A DNA stretch of 64,000 bases from Sedimentibacter sp. zth1 (GTDB lineage Bacteria; Bacillota; Clostridia; Tissierellales; Sedimentibacteraceae). Below, piece by piece: positions 4,058-40,521 of the stretch. The DNA lies in assembly GCF_017352195.1 (NCBI RefSeq), contig NZ_CP071445.1, positions 1,178,001 through 1,242,000 on the forward strand. The letters are read 5' to 3'. The stretch's first letter is position 1; the number at the start of each line of letters is the position of its first letter. The notes beneath the pieces are model-generated. The model saw only the letters and a list, made by a program, of their open reading frames with translations, made no database searches and had not been told where the DNA came from. Position numbers and translations under genes: made by a program.

Positions 4058-5052
4058 TTATACTACATATAAAATATTCATATTCTCTAATTTTTTTAAA
4101 AGTTGCTTTCTTAGGAATTCCTCTACATCTACTCTAATTTCATTTTTATAGCAATACCTTCCCAGTCCTCTTACAGTCATTATTTCTTTATCATATAAAT
4201 CTACTGCATTTGGAAATGTATCTTGATTAATTACTTTATGAATAAAACTGTATGTCATAAATATTATTTCAATTGTTGCTTGGTTTTTAACTTTTTCTGA
4301 TAATTCATCAGCAAGCTGATCAATTAGTTTTGAATATAATTCCTTCCAATTATCAAGTAGTACAACAGGTGCAATCAATAATCCAACTTTATAACCTGCC
4401 TCACACAATTGATTTATAGCTTTAATTCTATTTTTAAGAGATGATGTACCAAATTCTACTTTTCTAATAATTTCTTCTGGATTTACGCTAATCCTTGCAA
4501 TTACTTTACCATTATGATTAAGTGGCAATAAAGGCTCAATCATATCAAATTTAGTTGGGAAAGTAATCAAACCTTTTTTACTCTTAGCAAAGTTCTCATA
4601 GTCCACACCAAATTATTTGTAATATTATTTTCCAATACTAAATCACTATTACTACCTATTTCAAATACTAAGTCTTTATCACTTTTATTTGAGAATTTTA
4701 TGAGTTTATCTAACATTTGCTCCCTATTTACAAATACTCTAAGATAGGAACATTTATTATAGTGACACATCAAATAGCAATATAAACACATAGCACTACA
4801 GCCAGATGATGTATATGGAACAATATAATTTGAAACTTTGAAGTTTTCAGTATATTTATGTGTTTTTCTAACCCCTATAATTAAATGTTGTTTCATATTA
4901 GGAAACTCTTTGTTTGAATTTGTTCTTAATTCTTCTATTTTGTTATGACTTTTTATTTCAATCCACTCTTTGTCCTTATATTTTTCTCTTAAATATTTAC
5001 CTAACTCATAAGTTATAATTTGTGGCTCAAAATATATTTTATCTGGGAACAT
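4058..5052 (-). pseudogene. Spore photoproduct lyase-like radical SAM protein, frameshifted
   Basis: Two overlapping frames together match one spore photoproduct lyase (SPL)-type protein of about 330 residues. The first (5052-4567) holds FEPQIITYELGK, VGVRKTHKY and the radical SAM cysteines C-x3-C-x2-C (CSAMCLYCY). The second (to 4058) holds TKFDMIEPLL, RISVNPEEIIRKVEFGTSSL, GLLIAPV and the C-terminal part. Collinearity breaks near 4606, where a -1 (or +2) shift is needed. SPL reverses thymine spore photoproducts during germination with an S-adenosylmethionine radical. The H-donor Cys of SPL (FEASCTSD in Bacillus subtilis) appears as Ser here (FEIGSNSD), so even an intact version may not be a classical SPL. 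A sequencing error remains possible. Confidence 0.75.
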
Positions 5053-8935: not shown

Positions 8936-9304
8936 TTACTTTTTGCTGTCTGCTAAAGCTTGTTTGTATTCCTCTACTGTCATTCCTTTTTCTTCTGCTT
9001 GAGCTGCAAATTTCTCCGAAACTAGTGCTTTATACTCTTCAACAGTCATACCCTTTGCTGCTAATTGTGCTTCAAATTCTTCTTTAGTCATTTTTGGTTT
9101 AGCATCTTTTTTACTGTCTGCTAAAGCTTGTTTGTATTCCTCTACTGTCATTCCTTTTTCTTCTGCTTGAGCTGCAAATTCTTGAGCATATTCAGCTTTT
9201 GAATTCAACACTTTTCCTTCTTTTTCGCTTGTAGCTGCACTTGCAGACACTGTTCCGATTACGACAAGCATTATTGCCATTGCTAAAATAAATACTTTTT
9301 TCAT
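8936..9304 (-). CDS. Small secreted repeat protein (KGMTVEEYK repeats)
   Basis: This is a 122-residue protein with a clear Sec signal peptide (MKKVFILAMAIMLVVIGTVSASAA, likely cut after ASA). The mature part is very charged and mostly helical, with three copies of KGMTVEEYK. The first and third copies sit in near-identical 24-residue units that share 67 identical bases. I do not recognise the family. ATG at 9304 is chosen because AAAGGTG lies 6 bases upstream; an in-frame GTG 9 bases earlier overlaps the binding site. It has its own terminator and lies 108 bases downstream of the histidine kinase stop, so that two-component system may control it. Function unknown. Confidence 0.8.
   Translation of the reverse strand: MKKVFILAMAIMLVVIGTVSASAATSEKEGKVLNSKAEYAQEFAAQAEEKGMTVEEYKQALADSKKDAKPKMTKEEFEAQLAAKGMTVEEYKALVSEKFAAQAEEKGMTVEEYKQALADSKK
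8946..9180. repeat. Perfect 67-base direct repeat, 168-base period
   Basis: Bases 8946-9012 and 9114-9180 are identical over 67 positions, inside the coding region of the secreted repeat protein. The spacing is a multiple of three (168 bases, 56 codons). Copy number could therefore change in frame. Confidence 0.95.
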
Positions 9305-9412
9305 TGATATCACCTTTCTTGTTTGTATTCATCAACTATTGTTAATGTACAATTAGTATATCAATTAAATTGGTAATAAAAACGTTCTAATTATGGCATA
9401 ATTATGGCATTA

Positions 9413-29651: not shown

Positions 29652-31313
29652 TTATTTTTCTACATCAACTTTTATTGAATCCACCCAAATTTTATTATTG
29701 CCAATGTATTCGATATAAAGATTAATTCTGTCCACATCTCCAGTAATAACAGTTGCAGTTTTTACTGACCAAACATCATCATAAATTTGAATTTTACCAC
29801 TTTTACTATCCACACGTACTCCATCCTTATATACTTCTACAACAAGCTTAGCCTCAACATCTTTTTGAGCTTTGAACATTGCAGATATAACTACTTGATT
29901 ATTTTGCATTAATCTATATTTTTCATTTTTAAAGTCTATAACCGCAAACAGAGAATTAATGTTTGACTCAGTACTATTTTCAACTACTAGTGATGCATTT
30001 CCCTCGTTATAATTATCCGTACTTTCTTTAGCATATGGTCCAGTATAATTTATACTTTGTAAAATATCTTTGCTCAAGAAATCAGAAAATTCTCCAGAAA
30101 AGTCACCGTTTTGTTGTGTACTGTCTGATTGATCACTATCATCATTAGTTTGGCTATTGTTTGAATCATCTTCATTTGATGAATCATCATCTTTGTTATC
30201 TTCGTTATTATCTATACCTGTATTTTCACCCTGTGTATCTTGACCCAAAGTAGGTTCATCTTTATTATAAAGACTGTTTATAATAAAAAAGCTGAGTACT
30301 AATACTGCCACAATACAGATAGGTACAATTATTTTCAAAGCCTTATTACGATTATTATGATTTACTATTTCTTCCTTTTTATCATCTGCTTTATTAGAAT
30401 TATTTAAGTAAATATCGATTATATTTTGATTACTAACATCTTCTTCTATTTCACCAATTTCTTTTTCTTTAGAACTTGAATTATCTTCATTATTTTGATT
30501 ATGTAATTGGTTGTCCACATTTTTTTCAATGTTTGTATTCTCATTATCCAAAACTGTGCCTTTAACTGGGTTATCATTAATTATTTGATTACAAGTTATA
30601 TTTTCATTTTCTAAAGAATTTATGTCAGCAAGCTTTGCAATAGTAGACGGTCCTTCAATTTTACAATAAATCATCCCGTATACAGGAGAATTAATTAATT
30701 CTTTTAATATATCCTTTGGATGAAAATAATCTCTTGTTAAGCATTTTACTATAATCTTTAAAATATCAGGTGGTATTGAATCCGAAATATTGTAGTCTAC
30801 AACTTCCTCCTTAGAAAATAAATAATGAATCAAATTACCTAAATTTTTATATGTAAAATTATCTGATAAATCATACTCGTCCTTAAATTCAAAATAGCCA
30901 TTGAATATCAGCTTATTATCCTCTGTAACACTTAAATTATTAATATTCAAAATTTTAAACTGAAGTAAATCGCTTGTATTGTAAATATTTATAAATAGAT
31001 TTATTAATTGCTCAGTAATTAAGAATTGTTGCTTTAATGTTAAATCTTTATTATCTATATATTCTTTTATCATAGTTTGATTTTTAAGACTATGAGGTTT
31101 ACTTACTATATACAATCTATCTTCTGTCTTATATGTTCTTTCAATATTGGAATCTAAATTATTAAGAGTATTAATATCTATCAATTTAATAAGATTTTGA
31201 TTAATAATTGTATTATATATATAAATTTCTTCTGTTTTCTTATCTTTACATTCAACTATTCTTTGACAATCATTTTCATATAATATTTTTATTATTTCCA
31301 AGCTACTATCCAT
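29652..31313 (-). CDS. Pseudokinase-like / membrane / jelly-roll domain protein
   Basis: This 553-residue protein appears to have three parts. Residues 1-215 recall a degenerate protein-kinase fold. LYIVSKP is hinge-like and FKILNINNLSVTEDNKLIF replaces the HRDLKPSN catalytic loop. YKNLGNLIHYLF is like kinase helix F, and a helical end follows (IIVKCLTRDYFHPKDILKEL). Catalytic Asp and DFG are missing. One membrane helix (about 325-347, IIVPICIVAVLVLSFFIINS) and an Asn/Asp-rich linker come next. The C-terminal domain (about 415-553) resembles a carbohydrate-binding jelly roll, ending NKIWVDSIKVDVEK. The topology is cytoplasmic pseudokinase, external binding domain. It lies 145 bases after the TraG-like gene. 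Function unknown. Confidence 0.7.
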   Translation of the reverse strand: MDSSLEIIKILYENDCQRIVECKDKKTEEIYIYNTIINQNLIKLIDINTLNNLDSNIERTYKTEDRLYIVSKPHSLKNQTMIKEYIDNKDLTLKQQFLITEQLINLFINIYNTSDLLQFKILNINNLSVTEDNKLIFNGYFEFKDEYDLSDNFTYKNLGNLIHYLFSKEEVVDYNISDSIPPDILKIIVKCLTRDYFHPKDILKELINSPVYGMIYCKIEGPSTIAKLADINSLENENITCNQIINDNPVKGTVLDNENTNIEKNVDNQLHNQNNEDNSSSKEKEIGEIEEDVSNQNIIDIYLNNSNKADDKKEEIVNHNNRNKALKIIVPICIVAVLVLSFFIINSLYNKDEPTLGQDTQGENTGIDNNEDNKDDDSSNEDDSNNSQTNDDSDQSDSTQQNGDFSGEFSDFLSKDILQSINYTGPYAKESTDNYNEGNASLVVENSTESNINSLFAVIDFKNEKYRLMQNNQVVISAMFKAQKDVEAKLVVEVYKDGVRVDSKSGKIQIYDDVWSVKTATVITGDVDRINLYIEYIGNNKIWVDSIKVDVEK

Positions 31314-31457
31314 TCTTTCCTCCTCATAATAAGTCTAATATGTATTTATTAATTTTTTGTGAACAAATTTATTAATATTCTTTATATTAGTTATATTTTA
31401 CCACAATTAATTGAATAAATTAAGTAGTATTTTATTAAATTTACAAAAATACTAATT

Positions 31458-32990
31458 TTATTTAAAAGGTATATGTTTTATTCCATTTTTTATATCTTCA
31501 TACATTTTTTTCGGACTAATACTTATTGGTAGTTTACTTGAAATTTTAGACATCTCAAATGGTTTAGTTTTTTTAAAGCTATACTCATCAATATCAGCTA
31601 GTTCAGAAATAATAGGATATTGCCTACAATTAAATACTAAGGCTTCTCCTCTTTGCTTATTTAATCTTTGAAGCTGTGAAATTGAAATAAGTGGAGTTTC
31701 ATATTCAAAGTTGTCTCCATAGTGGAGTTTACCACTTAATTTACTTACCTCTTCTAAAAGAAGAACTTCTTTACTTGCCAAGAACACCCAATTATCACAA
31801 TTTCCTTTTATAGTCTGCGCATCATCATTATATTTCTTTTCTAATTGATGTACGCTCTGAATTACTAAGAAAAATCTCATATTACGACTTCTTGCTGCTG
31901 TAATCATTGAAGGCATATCCGGAAGTGCTGGAAGGTTTGCGAATTCGTCTAAAACAAAATTAACTCTAATATCGAGCTTTCTACTTTTATTATTTTGTGC
32001 TTCTTGTATTAACGTTTCATAGCATTGTTTTACAAAGGTTGTGGCAATAAAATGATATGTACTTTTCTCATCTGGTACAATAATATATATCGCTGTTTTT
32101 TCTTTTCCAATTTTTCTAACATCAAAACTATTACTTGACATGTTCCTTATAAGTTTATCTTGAGTCATAAAAACCTGGATAAGAGTAAATAACGTAGATT
32201 GTATATCCCCTCTTGCCTTATCACTTGAACCACTAATACCAAAATAGTTTAAATAGGCTATATTTTCATTGTCGGCTTCATTCATTAGTAAAGTTAAATA
32301 ATTTTTATTATCATCATTTGTGCTACCATTCGGAATATTGAACATAAAATTATCAGTAGTCTTTGAAAATTCAACACAAAACCTTGTGAAGGTTTTAAGA
32401 TTGCATTCCTCTTCACTACACTCATCAAGCATTAAAAGCAATATGGCAGTTGCTACAGAACGTGCAGCATTTACCCAAAATAAATCCTTAGTATTTTTAG
32501 TAAGCGGCTCAGATATTACATTTACAAAATCATTTATTCTAGCTACTGCATCATCTGTATACCCACTGTGATATAATTCATAAGGTAGAGCTAATGGATT
32601 CCAAGTATCCCCAAAGTTTAAATCTCTATAATTTAAAACAACAACATTATAGCCATGATCATTCACAAAACCTGAAGTATGATCAAACAGTTCGCCTTTT
32701 GGATCTGTAACGACAAATGATTCTCCAGCTCCTGCCATAATATTTATCATTGGCATGCAAAACAAGCGTGATTTTTTAGAACCAGTTGAGCCAAAAATCA
32801 AACTATGAGTATCTGTATTGTCTACCCATACATTATTACCATCACTAATTATAGGAAGTCCTGCAGCTGAATAGTTCTTATCTGTAATTTTTATAAAAGA
32901 TGTATTTGCTTTTATTTCATTAATATCTGCCCATCTTGTTTCTTGCTGTGATTTAGAGTATTTGGTGAATTTATAATATTCATCATTCAT
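31458..32990 (-). CDS. VirD4/TraG-like coupling ATPase, no conjugation genes nearby
   Basis: The 510-residue protein has the T4SS coupling protein layout. It shows a P-loop region (HSLIFGSTGSKKSRLFCMP), VVTDPKGELFDHTSGFV, and Walker B with TraM-recognition region (VNFVLDEFANLPALPDMPSM, then AARSRNMRFFLVIQS). SGKLHYGDN comes later. The P-loop reads GSTGSKKS, with Lys in place of the usual Gly before GKS/T. N-terminal membrane helices of classic VirD4 are absent, so it may be soluble. It overlaps the preceding AAA ATPase stop (TAATG), so the two are translationally coupled. VirD4 proteins feed substrates to secretion channels. No relaxase, mating-pair gene or integrase is present, so the partner is unknown. 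Confidence 0.85.
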   Translation of the reverse strand: MNDEYYKFTKYSKSQQETRWADINEIKANTSFIKITDKNYSAAGLPIISDGNNVWVDNTDTHSLIFGSTGSKKSRLFCMPMINIMAGAGESFVVTDPKGELFDHTSGFVNDHGYNVVVLNYRDLNFGDTWNPLALPYELYHSGYTDDAVARINDFVNVISEPLTKNTKDLFWVNAARSVATAILLLMLDECSEEECNLKTFTRFCVEFSKTTDNFMFNIPNGSTNDDNKNYLTLLMNEADNENIAYLNYFGISGSSDKARGDIQSTLFTLIQVFMTQDKLIRNMSSNSFDVRKIGKEKTAIYIIVPDEKSTYHFIATTFVKQCYETLIQEAQNNKSRKLDIRVNFVLDEFANLPALPDMPSMITAARSRNMRFFLVIQSVHQLEKKYNDDAQTIKGNCDNWVFLASKEVLLLEEVSKLSGKLHYGDNFEYETPLISISQLQRLNKQRGEALVFNCRQYPIISELADIDEYSFKKTKPFEMSKISSKLPISISPKKMYEDIKNGIKHIPFK

Positions 32991-33853
32991 TATTTATGTC
33001 CCCCAAATCCTATTCTTTTTATTGTTATTATTTCTTTCATACTTTGAACATACTCTCCATCTTTTGAATACCTTGAGATTTTAGTTGCATTAATCTTTTC
33101 GTCTTTAAATTTTTCTGACATGCAAATTTCAAATACAATATCTTGACACATCCTATTTATAGTTTTGTAGCCATCAAAATATTTAAACGCTTTTAGTTCT
33201 TCTACTGATTCTTTTATTGTATTAACTGCATCTTCTGTAAATTCTAAGCCATACTTACTTAATTTATCTATGATATACTTTGTTAAATCATTTGAAGATG
33301 GATAATCTAATTTAACTCTTCTGATTCTAAAAAAAGTTGAAAGTATATATTCAGCCTCTTTTAATTCATCTTCGGTAAAATTCTCAGCAATGAAAATTAT
33401 ACAAACTCTATCATCAATGCTTGACAAGTACTCCATTATTCTATTAAAATAAATTTCTTTATAGTGATTTTTCCATGCACTTATATCTAAGGCAAGCAAT
33501 CCACCATATTCACATCTAAAACCCGCTTTAGTATTAACTTCTCTAATTAATCTGGTTAACTCCATTAATTCAGTTCTAGGCTCGCAATAGTCTAATAAAA
33601 ATTCAAAATACTTTACATCACCGTAAAAATCTATTAACCTAACAGAATTTAAGTATTCTGACAATAATTTTAATAAATGCGTCTTTCCAGCACCCGAACG
33701 TGTATCCCACAATAAATCTGGCAATACTATGACCATATCATCTGGAATTTTTTTCAAATTAGTTGATACCTTGTGAAATTGTTTCAATAATTTTTTAATA
33801 TCATCTAACCCCGGCATTTCCATTATTTGATTATAGTATGGATTATTTTTCAT
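32990..33853 (-). CDS. AAA-type ATPase coupled to the TraG-like gene
   Basis: This 287-residue protein has a P-loop TRSGAGKTHLLKLL near residue 52, where the usual first Gly is Thr. A Walker B-like strand (GLLALDISAWKN) and a sensor-1-like strand (CIIFIAENFTEDEL) follow. A lid domain contains RRVKLDYPSSNDLTKYIIDK. This is the order of AAA+/DnaA-like ATPases. I do not recognise a named family. The gene has a strong promoter 52 bases upstream. Its stop overlaps the start of the VirD4/TraG-like gene by one base, so the two products are probably made in balance and may act as one machine. Confidence 0.75.
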   Translation of the reverse strand: MKNNPYYNQIMEMPGLDDIKKLLKQFHKVSTNLKKIPDDMVIVLPDLLWDTRSGAGKTHLLKLLSEYLNSVRLIDFYGDVKYFEFLLDYCEPRTELMELTRLIREVNTKAGFRCEYGGLLALDISAWKNHYKEIYFNRIMEYLSSIDDRVCIIFIAENFTEDELKEAEYILSTFFRIRRVKLDYPSSNDLTKYIIDKLSKYGLEFTEDAVNTIKESVEELKAFKYFDGYKTINRMCQDIVFEICMSEKFKDEKINATKISRYSKDGEYVQSMKEIITIKRIGFGGHK

Positions 33854-33904
33854 ATATTTCCCCTTGTTTAATTTATAAGTTTCTATTTTTTGACATTTAT
33901 ATTA

Positions 33905-33933
33905 ATTATAGTATGTTATAATATATATATCAA
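33905..33933 (-). promoter_or_regulatory. Promoter of the AAA-TraG gene pair
   Basis: TTGATA (33933-33928), a 17-base spacer and perfect TATAAT (33910-33905) lie on the minus strand about 52 bases before the AAA ATPase start codon. Confidence 0.75.
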
Positions 33934-33990
33934 GTATTAAAAAAAGTTAAGATTTTACATAGAAGGATGTAAATATCCAATTACTTTTCA

Positions 33991-34027
33991 AAAAAAAAGA
34001 TTAAGATAAACATCATCTTAATCTTTT
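33991..34027 (-). terminator. Terminator of the usp-DUF1232 genes
   Basis: A perfect 13-bp stem (AAAAGATTAAGAT / ATCTTAATCTTTT) closes a 7-base loop. On the minus strand it is followed by further T residues, and it overlaps the end of the DUF1232 gene. Confidence 0.85.
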
Positions 34028-34337
34028 ACTTATTATCATCAACTTTATATTCTACATCTTCAATAATTTCTTTACCATGTAAATCTTTTTTTGTCTTTTT
34101 ACTTTCAGTTGTATTATCTCCATAATACTTTTGAGTTTTATTTTGAATCATATGTAAAGTAAAAATAAGTACTACTAAGTCATCTATTAATGAGAATCCC
34201 AAAATCGGAAATGGAATTAAATCTATCGGACTTATAATATAAATGGCAGGTAAAATTATCCACCATTTGTCTCTTAGTGGTATGTTTTTGTCAAATAAAA
34301 ATTTAATCATTAATCTCAATCTCATAAAAATACTCAT
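34026..34337 (-). CDS. DUF1232 (YkvA-like) small membrane protein
   Basis: The protein has 103 residues. It contains IPLRDKWWIILPAIYIISPI then DLIPFPILGFSLIDDLVVLI, the DUF1232 signature of YkvA-type proteins, with the core SPIDLIP. The fold is a helical hairpin with amphipathic or membrane segments, and the C-terminal 35 residues are charged. The function of the family is not established. AAGGAT lies 7 bases before the ATG. It follows the universal stress protein gene by 12 bases, so the two form a small operon. Confidence 0.85.
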   Translation of the reverse strand: MSIFMRLRLMIKFLFDKNIPLRDKWWIILPAIYIISPIDLIPFPILGFSLIDDLVVLIFTLHMIQNKTQKYYGDNTTESKKTKKDLHGKEIIEDVEYKVDDNK

Positions 34338-35052: not shown

Positions 35053-35057
35053 CCTTT

Positions 35058-35154
35058 GGCGGGAATATGTGGGAATCGAACCCACCTAGGACGCTACTAA
35101 CGCCCAACACGCGGTGTTGAAGACCGGGGAGCACACCAGCACTCATCTACTCCC
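35058..35154 (-). tRNA. selC: Selenocysteine tRNA (anticodon TCA)
   Basis: The minus strand reads GGGAGTAGATGAGTGCTGGT and later CGGTCTTCAACACCG. It has a long acceptor arm, an extended D stem (GTGCTGG..), anticodon TCA in loop CTTCAAC and a very long variable arm. The T arm (GTGGGTTCGATTCCCAC), discriminator G and encoded CCA complete a 97-base molecule. The length and UCA anticodon identify tRNA-Sec. It lies about 1 kb downstream of selB on the same strand. Confidence 0.97.
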
Positions 35155-35235
35155 ATTACTTTGATAATATAACATATTTCCCTTGTACTATCAACTGTTA
35201 TTTTTTAGTAACTTTCCACTTTTTTTGCTTACTAC

Positions 35236-35922
35236 TTACTTCTTATTTCTAAAATAATATCCTGAGCCCCATTTTGTCAGTATATATTCATAGTTATGTG
35301 AATCTTTTTCTATTTTTTCTCTTAGTCTTCTAATATGAACATCTACTGTTCTTAAATCTCCAAAATACTCATATCCCCAAATTATTTCTAAAAGCTCCTC
35401 TCTTGAATAGATTTTACCTGGATTTGTAGCAAGTAAAAGCAATAAATCAAATTCCTTTGCAGTCAAATTAATATTCTTACTACCAATGCTAACTTTTCTA
35501 CCTAATGTATTAATTACAAAATCATCTGCAAGTATTGTTTGCTCATTTGGCTTTTGGTTATTAAATTTAGTTCTTCTGAGTATTGCTTTTATTCTTGCTT
35601 TTAATTCTAAAATATTGTATGGTTTAGTTAAATAATCATCCGCTCCGTATTCTAAACCTAAAATTTTATTCATATCTTCATTTTTTGAACTTAAAATAAT
35701 TATTGGTATATTATATTTTTCTCTTATTTTTTGGCATACTTCCAAACCATCAAAATCAGGTAAGATCAATTCTAGTATGATAATGTCAAATTCTTCAGTT
35801 GCAATAATATTTAGTGCCTCCTTACCTTCAAATACAGATACAACTTCATATTCGTCCTGTTCAAGGCTATATTTTAAGTTTTTAACTGAAATAAGTTCAT
35901 TATCTACTAACAGTACCTTCAT
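35236..35922 (-). CDS. Orphan OmpR-family response regulator with Asp-to-Glu phospho-site
   Basis: The 228-residue protein has a receiver domain and a C-terminal winged helix (EFDLLLLLATNPGKIYSREE and DLRTVDVHIRRLREKIE). In the receiver the phospho-acceptor position reads IILELILPDFDG, with Glu51 (codon GAA) where Asp is expected. The acidic pocket reads LLVDNE, with Asn for one Asp. The switch Ser (ILSSK) and Lys (LTKPY) are kept. Glu often mimics phospho-Asp, so the protein may be constitutively active. No histidine kinase is adjacent. It sits between selB and the tRNA-Sec gene, 198 bases after selB, and its own leader suggests separate control. Confidence 0.9.
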   Translation of the reverse strand: MKVLLVDNELISVKNLKYSLEQDEYEVVSVFEGKEALNIIATEEFDIIILELILPDFDGLEVCQKIREKYNIPIIILSSKNEDMNKILGLEYGADDYLTKPYNILELKARIKAILRRTKFNNQKPNEQTILADDFVINTLGRKVSIGSKNINLTAKEFDLLLLLATNPGKIYSREELLEIIWGYEYFGDLRTVDVHIRRLREKIEKDSHNYEYILTKWGSGYYFRNKK

Positions 35923-36120
35923 AATATATTCTCCTAATACTTCTCGATTTGCATTTATAGTATTTTATAACAATTTATAACATTTATATATATTATCATA
36001 ACTAATTAATACTTATTTTTTACAATTTTGTAGGATAGTTGTTACAAAAATTAAATTTTTATCATAATAGTACATTTATTTCATCTTATTTGTCAAGTAT
36101 TTTAATAATTTAAATTGAGT

Positions 36121-38037
36121 TTAGTTAAGCTTGTTTAAAATTCTATCATTTTCGATTCTTTTCGTAAATTTTATGCTATCAAAATATTCAAGTAGTGATA
36201 TTGCTGATTTTCTATTTGTATTAAGTATATCCCTACACTCACCTGCTGTTATTTTACCATTTTTCTCTAAGTATTCTGTGATACATGTCTTGGTATTTTC
36301 AATGATAGTTGATGATGTAAATGTATCTTCGCAAACTTTTACAATTTCTTCTGTATCAAGTAATAAATTTAGTATATCCTCTAAACTAATGTTATCACTA
36401 TCCAAAGCTAGTATTTCGCTTAATCTAACAAAATCCAACTTAGATTTATTTATTAAATTCACTATTTTTTTATAAAGTACATTATATTTATCGTCTTTTT
36501 TTATGATATATTCAGCTAAAAATAAATAATCTTTAAATTGACTGATTAGATTTTTGTTTATCATATTATTTATTATTTCATCAAAAACATTTTGCTTTAA
36601 TTTTAAAAAGAATTTACTTTTTATTTCAGATTTTTTAATACCATATTTATATGGGTTTGCAACATTATAGTCTCCGATAAATTTGCATATTTCATCCTCT
36701 ATCTGTCTTTCGTATCTTTTATGCCATATATACCTATCTTTTTTTAATTTGAATATAGTTATTTTGCCTTCTTCGTCAAGCTTCTTTATATTTTCACTCA
36801 TTTCTTCTAATGAAAGCGCTGTGATTTTAGCTAGTTCACCTATAGTTGGTATGTTTTTGCTATTTTCAAGAATTATATTCTCTATAACATCTGTATGAGA
36901 ACCTTGTTCTTTAATCTTCAAAATTTCAATTAATTCATTATCAAATCTCTTTTTTTTATTTGGAACTGGCTCTATTATTTCTCCTCCACCAACTGTCTCC
37001 ATAGGTGAATAAAATCTTACAATAAACTTGTCCCCTCTTCTAACCGCTATTTCCTCTTCAAGTCTTAATTGAGCATAGCAGCTTTCTCCAGGAGATAGCA
37101 ATTCTTTATCTAATAAAACAATCCTACACAATACTTCGCTTGTACCAGTATAAAGATGTAATCTACTCCTATTTTCTATAATACGCTTTGAAGACTTTAA
37201 CAAATTAATTTTAACATCAAGCATCATAGTATTTTTCATACTATTGATAGGTGCTAAAACACAACCTCTATATAATTCCTTTTTTTTGATATTTGATAAA
37301 TTTATAGCTGCTCTTTGACCTGCAAAACAACATTCCATATCAATTCCGTGTACTTGAATATTTCTAACTCGACATACTTTGTTTACAGGATAAATTTCGA
37401 GTTCATCACCTTTTTTTATTTGTCCTGAAATCAATGTTCCAGTTATAACAGTACCAAATCCAGAAATAGAAAATACTCTATCAATAGGTAATCTAGGAAT
37501 AGTAGTAATATCTCTTTCTTCTAAATTTTCACTTGTAAGTTCTTGAATTTTATTTATCAACTCATCAATTCCTTGTCTTGTTACAGAGGATACCTCTATC
37601 ATGGGTGAATCTTTAAAAAATGTATCTTCTAATTCATCCTTTATATCATCCTTAACAAGCTCTAACCATTCTTTATCTACCAAATCACATTTCGTTAAAA
37701 CAACTATACCATTTTTAATACCAAGTAAATTCAATATATTTATATGCTCCTCAGTTTGAGGCATAATACCTTCATCAGCAGCTATAACTAGTAAAACCAA
37801 ATCCATACCGATAACTCCAGCCAACATATTCTTTATAAATTTTTCATGACCTGGTACATCGATTATACCAATTCTGTTTTTGTTTGGAAGATCAAAATAA
37901 GCAAAACCTAAGTCAATAGTAATTCCTCTTTTTTTCTCTTCTTCCCATCTGTCTGTGTCTTTTCCTGTCATTGCTTTTATCAGAGTTGTCTTTCCGTGAT
38001 CAATATGGCCCGCAGTACCTACTATAATATTCTTCAT
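36121..38037 (-). CDS. selB: Selenocysteine-specific elongation factor SelB
   Basis: The protein has 638 residues, normal for SelB. An EF-Tu-like GTPase comes first (GTAGHIDHGKTTLIKAMTG, DVPGHEKFIKNML, VVLTKCDLVD). Beta-barrel domains 2 and 3 follow, and a C-terminal region of winged helices (about 380-638) binds the SECIS hairpin in mRNA. It delivers Sec-tRNA to in-frame UGA codons, one of which is in selD of this same operon. It begins 15 bases after selA. Confidence 0.97.
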   Translation of the reverse strand: MKNIIVGTAGHIDHGKTTLIKAMTGKDTDRWEEEKKRGITIDLGFAYFDLPNKNRIGIIDVPGHEKFIKNMLAGVIGMDLVLLVIAADEGIMPQTEEHINILNLLGIKNGIVVLTKCDLVDKEWLELVKDDIKDELEDTFFKDSPMIEVSSVTRQGIDELINKIQELTSENLEERDITTIPRLPIDRVFSISGFGTVITGTLISGQIKKGDELEIYPVNKVCRVRNIQVHGIDMECCFAGQRAAINLSNIKKKELYRGCVLAPINSMKNTMMLDVKINLLKSSKRIIENRSRLHLYTGTSEVLCRIVLLDKELLSPGESCYAQLRLEEEIAVRRGDKFIVRFYSPMETVGGGEIIEPVPNKKKRFDNELIEILKIKEQGSHTDVIENIILENSKNIPTIGELAKITALSLEEMSENIKKLDEEGKITIFKLKKDRYIWHKRYERQIEDEICKFIGDYNVANPYKYGIKKSEIKSKFFLKLKQNVFDEIINNMINKNLISQFKDYLFLAEYIIKKDDKYNVLYKKIVNLINKSKLDFVRLSEILALDSDNISLEDILNLLLDTEEIVKVCEDTFTSSTIIENTKTCITEYLEKNGKITAGECRDILNTNRKSAISLLEYFDSIKFTKRIENDRILNKLN

Positions 38038-38052
38038 AAATAATTCCTTCCG

Positions 38053-39450
38053 TTAAATAAATGCATTTTTTATAGTCTGTGAAAGTATTTCTATTTCATT
38101 TGTAGCTATTGTTCTCATATCTATTATGGCCTTATCATTAGCAATTCTAATAATAACTGGGATTTGAGAATTTCTAAGCCTATTTTCAAAAATTTGTGTT
38201 GTAATACTATTAGGTTTTATAGATATACACTTACTTTTTATTCTTTCAAGTGGTAATGAACCACCACCTATTTGTGATAAACAATCTTCTATTTCTATCG
38301 TTGCCTTTTCTTTACAGCCAGATAATTTTGTCATCAAACTTTCTGCTTGCTTTTCTATCTCTTTAATATCTCTTGTAATCATTGAAAGTACAGGTATATT
38401 TTTTATAGCACTTTCTTCATCTAGGTACTCATGAAAAACTGCTTCTAATGCTGTTGCTGTGAATTTATCTATCCTCATAGCACGAGTTAACGGGTTTTTC
38501 TTCATTTTGTTAATTAAATCTTTACGCCCAACAATAATTCCTGCCTGTGGGCCTCCAAGTAGTTTGTCGCCACTAAAGCATACTACATCAGCACCATTTC
38601 TTATTGACTCTTGTACAGTAGGCTCATAAGCCAAACCATATTTACTCAAATCTATCAAAACTCCACTCCCTATGTCCTCGATAACTGGCAAACTGTGTTT
38701 TTTACTTAATTCACTAAGTTCCTTGATTCCTACAGACTCTGTAAATCCAACTATTCTATAGTTACTAGTATGAACTTTTAGGAAAGCCTTCGTTTCCTCT
38801 GTTATAGCATTTTCATAGTCTGATAAATGTGTTTTATTGGTTGTACCAATCTCTACGAGCTTAGAACCACTTTGAATCATAACATCTGGCACCCTAAAAG
38901 AACCACCTATTTCAACTAATTCTCCTCTTGATACTATTACTTCATTGCCTTTAGCCATAGTACTAAGAATTAACATTACTGCTGCTGCATTATTGTTAAC
39001 TGCCATACATGCTTCAGCCCCAGTTATTCTGCATACAATATCCTCGAAATGAGAGTATCTTTCTCCCCTCTCGCCTTTTTCAATATCATACTCTAAATTA
39101 GAATAACCTGTAACAATTTCTTTAATTCTATCCGCTATTTTTTCAGATATTATAGCTCTTCCTAAATTAGTATGTAAAATAGTTCCTGTACCATTTATAA
39201 CCTTTTTCATGTTTAGTTCAGTTATTTTATTAACACTTTTTACTATATCTACGATTAGATTGGCTATTCTTTCTTCTATAGCTTGTTCACTGTCAGAATT
39301 GGTTATGAATTTTCTCAATTCATCAGTTCTTTCCCTAATAATTTCTATCACTAAATCTCTATCATTTTTTTTAATAATATTCTTTATTCTTTCATCTTCA
39401 ATAAGTATATCTACTTTTGGAATATTTCTAAAATAAGCATTCTTATTCAT
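38053..39450 (-). CDS. selA: L-seryl-tRNA(Sec) selenium transferase
   Basis: This 465-residue PLP enzyme has the SelA pattern: VINGTGTILHTNLGRAI, LEYDIEKGERGERY, AVNNNAAAVMLIL and the PLP lysine in CFSGDKLLGGPQAG (about residue 296). It converts Ser-tRNA(Sec) to Sec-tRNA(Sec) using selenophosphate from SelD. It lies 24 bases after selD and 15 bases before selB, forming a selDAB operon. The length is normal and I see nothing unusual. Confidence 0.97.
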   Translation of the reverse strand: MNKNAYFRNIPKVDILIEDERIKNIIKKNDRDLVIEIIRERTDELRKFITNSDSEQAIEERIANLIVDIVKSVNKITELNMKKVINGTGTILHTNLGRAIISEKIADRIKEIVTGYSNLEYDIEKGERGERYSHFEDIVCRITGAEACMAVNNNAAAVMLILSTMAKGNEVIVSRGELVEIGGSFRVPDVMIQSGSKLVEIGTTNKTHLSDYENAITEETKAFLKVHTSNYRIVGFTESVGIKELSELSKKHSLPVIEDIGSGVLIDLSKYGLAYEPTVQESIRNGADVVCFSGDKLLGGPQAGIIVGRKDLINKMKKNPLTRAMRIDKFTATALEAVFHEYLDEESAIKNIPVLSMITRDIKEIEKQAESLMTKLSGCKEKATIEIEDCLSQIGGGSLPLERIKSKCISIKPNSITTQIFENRLRNSQIPVIIRIANDKAIIDMRTIATNEIEILSQTIKNAFI

Positions 39451-39474
39451 TATTTAAATTATCCTTTTCTCATG

Positions 39475-40521
39475 TTAATTGTGTAAATTTATATATTTAT
39501 CCTGTTTTTCAACAACCTTTCCTATTATTGAAAATTTCGTATCAATACCTGATTTTTCTAAATCATTTATAATACTTTCGGCTTCATTTTCATTAACACT
39601 AACTAAAAGTCCACCTGATGTTTGTGGGTCAAACATTACATCTATATATTCTTCTTTTACTTCATTATAGTTAACTTTACCCTTAAAGTATGCTTGATTT
39701 TTATATGCCCCAGCAGGTATAAGCCCCATCTGTGCATATTCAATAATATTTGATATCATTGGAACATCTTTTATATTTATATCGAATGTAACATTGCTAC
39801 TTTCAGCCATTTCAATGCCATGACCTATCAAACCAAACCCTGTTATATCAGTACAACTACTAATATTGTATTTTTCAAATACTTCTTTTGCTTTTTTATT
39901 TAAAGATGTCATAACAATTATAGCTTCATCTACAATCTCTTTTGAAGCCATATCTGCCTTTGCTGCTGTGTTTACAATACCAGAACCTACCTGCTTTGTT
40001 AAGATTAATACATCACCTGGTTTCGCTCCATAATTCTTAAATATTCCTTTTGGATTTACAAATCCTGTCACACATAATCCATATTTCGGTTCATCATCCT
40101 CTATCGAATGTCCACCTGCCAATGTAGCACCTGCTTCAATAACTTTGGATGCTCCACCACTCAATATATCAGCCATAACTGACGGATCTAGGCAATTTGG
40201 AAACCCAATAATATTTAAAGCAAGTCTTGGCTCTCCTCCCATTGCATATACGTCACTTAATGAATTTGCTGCTGCAATTTGTCCAAATACATATGGATCA
40301 TCAACTACAGGTGTAAAAAAATCTACTGTTTGAATCATTGCTATTTCATCATTTATTTTATAAACTGCTGCATCGTCAGATGTTTCTAATCCAACTATTA
40401 ATTTATCATCCTTAAATTTAGGTAACTTACACAAAACTTGTGCAAGGGTCTCAGGACCAATTTTAGCTGCTCAGCCAGCAGTTTTTGTCATTTGTGTTAA
40501 TCTAACTTCTTTTTTGCTCAT
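39475..40521 (-). CDS. selD: Selenide, water dikinase SelD (selenoprotein, UGA at codon 17)
   Basis: The usual reading frame begins only at 40434, but the conserved N-terminus continues upstream through one in-frame TGA (40473-40471) to ATG at 40521. AAGGTGG lies 7 bases before that ATG. The N-terminus reads MSKKEVRLTQMTKTAG-Sec-AAKIGPET. Sec falls at position 17 and Lys at 20, exactly where Escherichia coli SelD has Cys17 and Lys20. The full protein is 348 residues with VGLETSDDAAVYKI, AGGHSIEDDEPKYG and FDPQTSGGLL. It makes selenophosphate from selenide and ATP for SelA. First of selDAB; comEA lies 23 bases upstream. Confidence 0.96.
40440..40473 (-). promoter_or_regulatory. UGA-Sec codon and candidate SECIS hairpin in selD
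   Basis: After the TGA, bases 16-27 (counting T as 1) form GGTC-CTGA-GACC, a 4-bp stem at the distance expected of a bacterial SECIS. A second hairpin (CTTGCACAA / TTGTGTAAG) follows directly. The exact SelB-binding fold is not certain. Confidence 0.6.

Follow-up and report, generated by a model that had tools for sequence, protein, structure and literature searches.

Introduction

According to a recent review of type IV secretion systems (T4SS), coupling proteins belong to the SpoIIIE/FtsK/HerA superfamily; the sections of that review drawn on here describe no stand-alone coupling protein paired with an AAA protein or with ClpP (PMC12857230). The stretch of Sedimentibacter sp. zth1 DNA analysed in this study (64,000 nucleotides; hereafter, the window) carries an adjacent AAA-like and TraG-like gene with no recognised conjugation genes, an arrangement that we refer to as the module. 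The TraG-like protein shares with VirD4/TraG coupling proteins (CD1115, NF045973; TrwB, Cag-beta) the ATPase fold, the all-alpha domain, PF02534, PF12696 and the Walker B motif, but it differs from them in having no membrane helices and a P-loop of the form GxTGSKK. In contrast to the coupling proteins, the pair has no linked relaxase, VirB4 or channel genes, and a CbxX/ClpX-like partner gene is a regular part of it.

The partner is related to AAA+ proteins of the CbxX/CfxQ type (CbbX; tandem clostridial forms of ~690 aa), whose N-terminal domain is homologous to the window AAA protein and which include its top PDB match, CbbX. Unlike these proteins, the window AAA protein stands alone, with no second intact AAA domain, and the TraG-like protein seems to take the role of the motor. 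The AAA+ unfoldase fold class is held in common with ClpXP and HslUV, and ClpP is found beside five related pairs, whereas an FtsK/HerA-class protein is the presumed motor here and no ClpP adjoins the window pair. The SIR2-HerA and DUF4297-HerA antiphage systems are likewise small, non-conjugative modules with a ring ATPase of the FtsK/HerA class, but the motor in the window belongs to the VirD4 branch rather than to HerA, and the window has no SIR2 or nuclease effector. In the open-access literature, we found no description of an AAA+TraG or a TraG+ClpP module, and the two conflict-system papers checked for VirD4 or TraG contained neither.

Results

Overlapping Genes for a TraG-Like ATPase and an AAA+-Fold Partner

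The pair lies on the minus strand and consists of the gene for a VirD4/TraG-like (FtsK/HerA superfamily) ATPase of 510 aa (31458..32990), with the P-loop GSTGSKKS and the Walker B motif VLDEF, and that for an AAA+-fold partner of 287 aa (32990..33853), with the P-loop TRSGAGKT and a Walker B region reading LALDISAW. Both proteins are predicted to be soluble, and both open reading frames are intact. At the junction CATAAATAATG, the stop codon TAA of the AAA gene and the start codon ATG of the TraG-like gene have one base in common (TAATG, 32988..32992, minus strand), in agreement with the translational coupling proposed in an earlier note on this DNA. The same note had placed the two genes under one strong promoter. 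Upstream of the pair, a promoter-like TTGATA-17-TATAAT site (33933-33905, minus strand), a match to the consensus only, agrees with it at 11 of 12 positions, but promoter-like sites are as numerous in the region as in shuffled sequence, and a strong promoter is therefore only plausible. A perfect 13-bp inverted repeat (AAAAGATTAAGAT/ATCTTAATCTTTT; 33995..34027) is likely to be the terminator of the upstream DUF1232/Usp operon.

A Discrete Two-Gene Insertion

The pair is flanked by a DUF1232 gene (34026-34337) on one side and a gene for a 553-aa protein (29652-31313) on the other. The upstream Usp-DUF1232 genes and the downstream 553-aa gene are syntenic across the family, and six relatives have the same gene order with the pair missing between the flanking genes, indicating a discrete, clean insertion of two genes (31314..34025); L099, one of the six, has a different small ORF at this place. 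No convincing direct repeats were found flanking the insertion. The GC content of the pair is 29.5%, as compared with 29.3% for the window, so that the insertion is not recent by this measure, and a recent foreign origin, judged by base composition, was rejected in view of the lack of deviation.

The pseudokinase-like 553-aa gene was considered as a third component and rejected, since it is core in 24 of 27 family genomes and adjoins DUF1232 without the pair in the relatives. Its product is a single-pass membrane protein, encoded next to an ABC/HlyD export operon in 24/27 family genomes, and the N-terminal part resembles a degenerate protein kinase, with no Pfam kinase match. About 1 kb from the insertion, a tRNA-Sec gene together with SelB, SelA and SelD (35057-40434) forms an ordinary selenocysteine locus.

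The TraG-Like Protein

Pfam assigned the TraG-like protein to PF02534 (E = 4e-41) and PF12696 (E = 1e-24), and the protein passed the model NF045973, "VirD4-like conjugal transfer protein, CD1115 family", with 282.1 bits at a cut-off of 250. A direct sequence search of the PDB gave no match. The AF2 model (pLDDT 87) matched Cag-beta and TrwB and then HerA, including the SIR2-HerA and DUF4297-HerA antiphage complexes. In the N-terminal part, hydropathy over 19 residues peaks at 1.5, as compared with 2.3-2.8 in membrane-anchored TraGs, among which the second TraG of the same genome falls. By hydropathy and the AF2 model, the TraG-like protein has no membrane anchor, in contrast to the ICE TraGs checked, and hydropathy revealed none in any pair-linked member. 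The absence of N-terminal membrane helices, as described in the earlier note, is thus upheld.

The protein departs from the canonical P-loop GxxxxGK[ST], with lysine in place of the last glycine (GSTGSKKS). We found the form G-x-[TS]-[GA]-S-K-K in all eight loci of the window's subfamily, across which the motif lysine and the Walker B D-E are retained; without the glycine, ATP turnover could be weak or absent. The P-loop of L056 (GGSGSKKN) ends in N and has lost the S/T, and the glycine is retained in the nested L066 (GGTGSGKS) and in the outlier L060 (normal P-loop). In the phylogenetic tree, which has long branches and leaves the placement of L066 unsure, L066 groups inside with L022 (support 98/96), so that this tree does not show the change from glycine to lysine as one clean event. 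The pair-linked TraGs cluster together (96/95), separate from the ICE TraGs. In the class search, the window-subfamily TraGs scored 549-770 bits, as compared with at most 280 bits for other TraGs; the TraG of G666, identified later, scored 449 bits. Plasmid and phage records contained no close relative of the TraG-like protein, with all matches below 60% identity and the best among those listed at ~34%; nearly all the plasmid matches listed are annotated as conjugal TraGs. PADLOC returned a weak mad8 match and nothing else.

The AAA+ Partner

Pfam matches of the AAA protein were sub-threshold only (AAA_22, KAP_NTPase), and PADLOC named no known system for it. Its AF2 model (pLDDT 85) has an AAA+ fold with a lid, and the top PDB matches are CbbX, ClpX and HslU, with modest Foldseek TM-scores of 0.45-0.54. 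The P-loop ends in GKT in the window and in GRT in L005 and L006, and is lost in most other members, while the sequence at the Walker B site is D-I-S-[AE]-W or close to it (DISAW/DISEW), with the usual glutamate absent; intact Walker A and Walker B (hhhhDE) motifs of AAA+ ATPases are not preserved across the family. The earlier note had described both P-loops of the window as deviant, and the two motifs do read as it gave them, but the deviation of TRSGAGKT is mild, since GxGKT is kept. The same AAA domain also forms the N-terminal half of CbxX-type AAA+ proteins of ~690 aa (profile E 3e-25, L008), the second half of which has AAA and AAA_lid_6 matches in Pfam.

Distribution and Conjugation Context

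An AAA scan of genome contigs showed that two MAGs of the Oscillospiraceae, L005 and L006, also have the pair, in each case amid metabolic and housekeeping genes. The identities are 39% for AAA and 54% and 50% for TraG, a conservation that goes beyond chance. Profile searches of 391 class genomes gave more diverged pairs in G574, G500, G550 and G512, and further diverged pairs were found in G666, where the gene order is inverted (TraG then AAA), and in L066, a viral-collection contig (IMG/VR). L066 was the one pair among the viral contigs, narrower queries of which gave none. The window's subfamily was present in 5 of the 391 class genomes and, in the phylum sample, in 1 of 398, which is the genome under study. 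Among the 249 genomes of the order search, this genome alone had a convincing AAA match, the other 248 having none; a second match, with 25% identity, lies inside a 2,731-codon open frame. The subfamily is rare and scattered, and the pair, with 10 loci known, is not strain-specific.

Reading the ORF list of the window by eye, we recognised neither a relaxase nor VirB4, and no conjugation genes were seen within 10 kb of the L005 and L006 pairs. ORF lists and partial Pfam scans likewise gave no recognisable relaxase, VirB4 or channel gene beside any pair. The genome's sole PF03432 relaxase lies about 560 kb from the pair, and an ordinary TraG is located at 2,554,636. These results support the intact, chromosomal, non-conjugative two-gene module proposed in the earlier note, and it recurs in distant Clostridia outside ICEs, conserved in two distant genomes and diverged in others; the pair is neither limited to this strain nor always inside ICEs, the two outcomes that the note had set against its own proposal. 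Its further suggestion of translocation or substrate secretion found no support, as both proteins are predicted to be soluble, linked channel genes were seen in none of the loci, and the recurrent neighbours are instead ClpP, CHAT, TIR, kinase, Card1-like and Sel1-repeat genes. Secretion or conjugation is unsupported.

Neighbouring Genes

ClpP adjoins 5 of the 10 pair loci, immediately downstream in L022, L023, L024 and L066 and upstream in L060 (Pfam-confirmed for L024, by BLAST similarity for the other loci), and is not adjacent in the window, L005, L006, L056 or L065. In L057 and L058, ClpP is next to a CbxX-type protein bearing the same AAA domain. The one ClpP match found in the window's own genome lies about 98 kb from the pair and is 49% identical to the ClpP of L024. 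CHAT, TIR, Card1-like and similar genes are typical of prokaryotic conflict systems. CHAT proteins are present in L022 and L056 (mutual BLAST E 1e-78; Pfam for L022), TIR, kinase and Card1-like domains in L024, GAP1-M in L065, and Sel1-repeat genes adjacent to the pair or in its vicinity in L065 and L005 (sub-threshold in L005).

In two of these loci, the genes form a single array. That of L060 (8080-18593), a larger relative of the pair module, comprises ClpP, AAA-like, TraG-like (normal P-loop), FHA/zinc-ribbon, ClpB-like AAA_2 and protein kinase genes, together with an apparent radical-SAM activase and an apparent PP2C. That of L057 (8034-20000) encodes ClpP, a Card1-like nuclease, a Tubulin_2 protein and a secreted protein that is vWA-like, as well as the CbxX-type AAA protein, whose N-terminal domain is the one described above. 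Near the AAA-TraG-ClpP genes of L022 (2867-3928) and L023 (4305-5384), we also observed membrane proteins that are related to each other (BLAST E 7e-6) and carry an HExxH-like metallopeptidase motif.

Discussion

We give an even chance to the hypothesis that the pair was acquired horizontally and is an accessory module of the AAA/ClpP-type conflict or stress kind, into which a VirD4-family motor has been recruited. In such a module, the TraG-like protein would be a soluble VirD4-family ring motor and would work alongside a CbxX/ClpX-type AAA+ partner that is translated with it and has eroded catalytic motifs, and clostridial stress or conflict modules would join the same AAA+ domain to either a CbxX AAA+ motor or a TraG-like motor, often beside ClpP. 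The AAA+ partner may recognise or position a target, which the TraG-like ring may thread, probably as a protein, to a protease or effector; the effector would be ClpP in the ClpP-bearing loci and, in the window, host ClpP or another effector. It appears that the CbxX AAA+ and TraG-like motors can substitute for each other next to ClpP and the shared pseudo-AAA domain, and we therefore infer a protein-processing module in preference to DNA export. VirD4-family motors are known mainly for DNA, and the protein substrate is thus a guess; since no ClpP adjoins the window pair, its substrate and output are inferred. The ring assembly, the heteromer and the defence or stress role are likewise presumed. 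Several points count against a protein-processing module: only five of the ten known loci carry ClpP, the set of conflict genes varies from locus to locus and may include bystanders, the P-loop glycine is lost, the TM-scores of the AAA model are modest, and PADLOC gave the AAA protein no known system. More specifically, a VirD4-family DNA-export motor may have been rebuilt as a ring that threads proteins in the cytosol; together with a pseudo-AAA+ adaptor, it would take the place of the usual AAA+ unfoldase ahead of ClpP or a different effector, and the clostridial immunity or stress system so formed would be a new one. We hold this idea tentatively and consider it rather doubtful.

A defence module acting on DNA, in which the TraG-like ring is a HerA-like DNA-sensing or threading motor that activates its partner without proteolysis, is consistent with the sporadic distribution, the clean insertion and the TIR, CHAT and Card1-like genes near some members. 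The structural search did return HerA antiphage complexes, but these matches come after VirD4/TrwB and are weaker, no nuclease or NADase gene lies beside the window pair, and ClpP is the commonest linked gene among the diverged members; we regard this possibility as somewhat unlikely. It is distinctly less probable that both ATPases are pseudo-enzymes and that the pair is a nucleotide-independent scaffold, or regulatory assembly. The lysine at the P-loop glycine in 8/8 subfamily loci, the additional loss of S/T in L056 (GGSGSKKN), the loss of the P-loop lysine or the whole motif from the AAA partner in most members and its missing Walker B glutamate would all fit a scaffold, but the TraG-like P-loop lysine and Walker B D/E are conserved and one nested member keeps GGTGSGKS, so that ATP use is probably kept or altered, not lost.

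We think it very unlikely that the pair is an orphan coupling protein serving a conjugation or mobilisation system encoded elsewhere and recruiting DNA to its channel. The passing of the NF045973 cut-off, the fold resembling TrwB and Cag-beta, and the PF03432 relaxase and second TraG of the genome speak for it; against it stand the lack of a membrane anchor in any member, the altered P-loop, the clade separate from ICE TraGs, and the fact that conjugation genes were seen beside no member. Moreover, an ordinary TraG is already present, and a CbxX/ClpX-type AAA partner is not a known part of a relaxosome. A decaying remnant of an integrative element, which the earlier note had raised as its alternative, is also very unlikely. 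Within its order, the genome under study alone carries the pair, as a remnant might suggest, but the frames are intact, the motifs and the pairing are common to unrelated genomes and contexts, the insertion is discrete, no other element genes are present, and the base composition is that of the host.

If the protein-processing module is real, coupling-protein motors also operate outside conjugation, together with a partner resembling an unfoldase and, in several of the genomes, with ClpP. Clp-type proteolysis would then gain a second motor class, or the pair would be a small defence system of a new kind. A further consequence would be that a gene reaching the cut-off for "VirD4-like conjugal transfer protein, CD1115 family" need not be conjugative, because the window protein does reach it.

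Elsewhere in the window, two overlapping ORFs of 161 and 182 aa (4058-5052), in different frames, each resemble one half of a spore photoproduct lyase-type protein, which suggests a frameshift, and a small secreted protein with repeats of AAQAEEKGMTVEEYKQALADSKK is encoded at 8936-9313.
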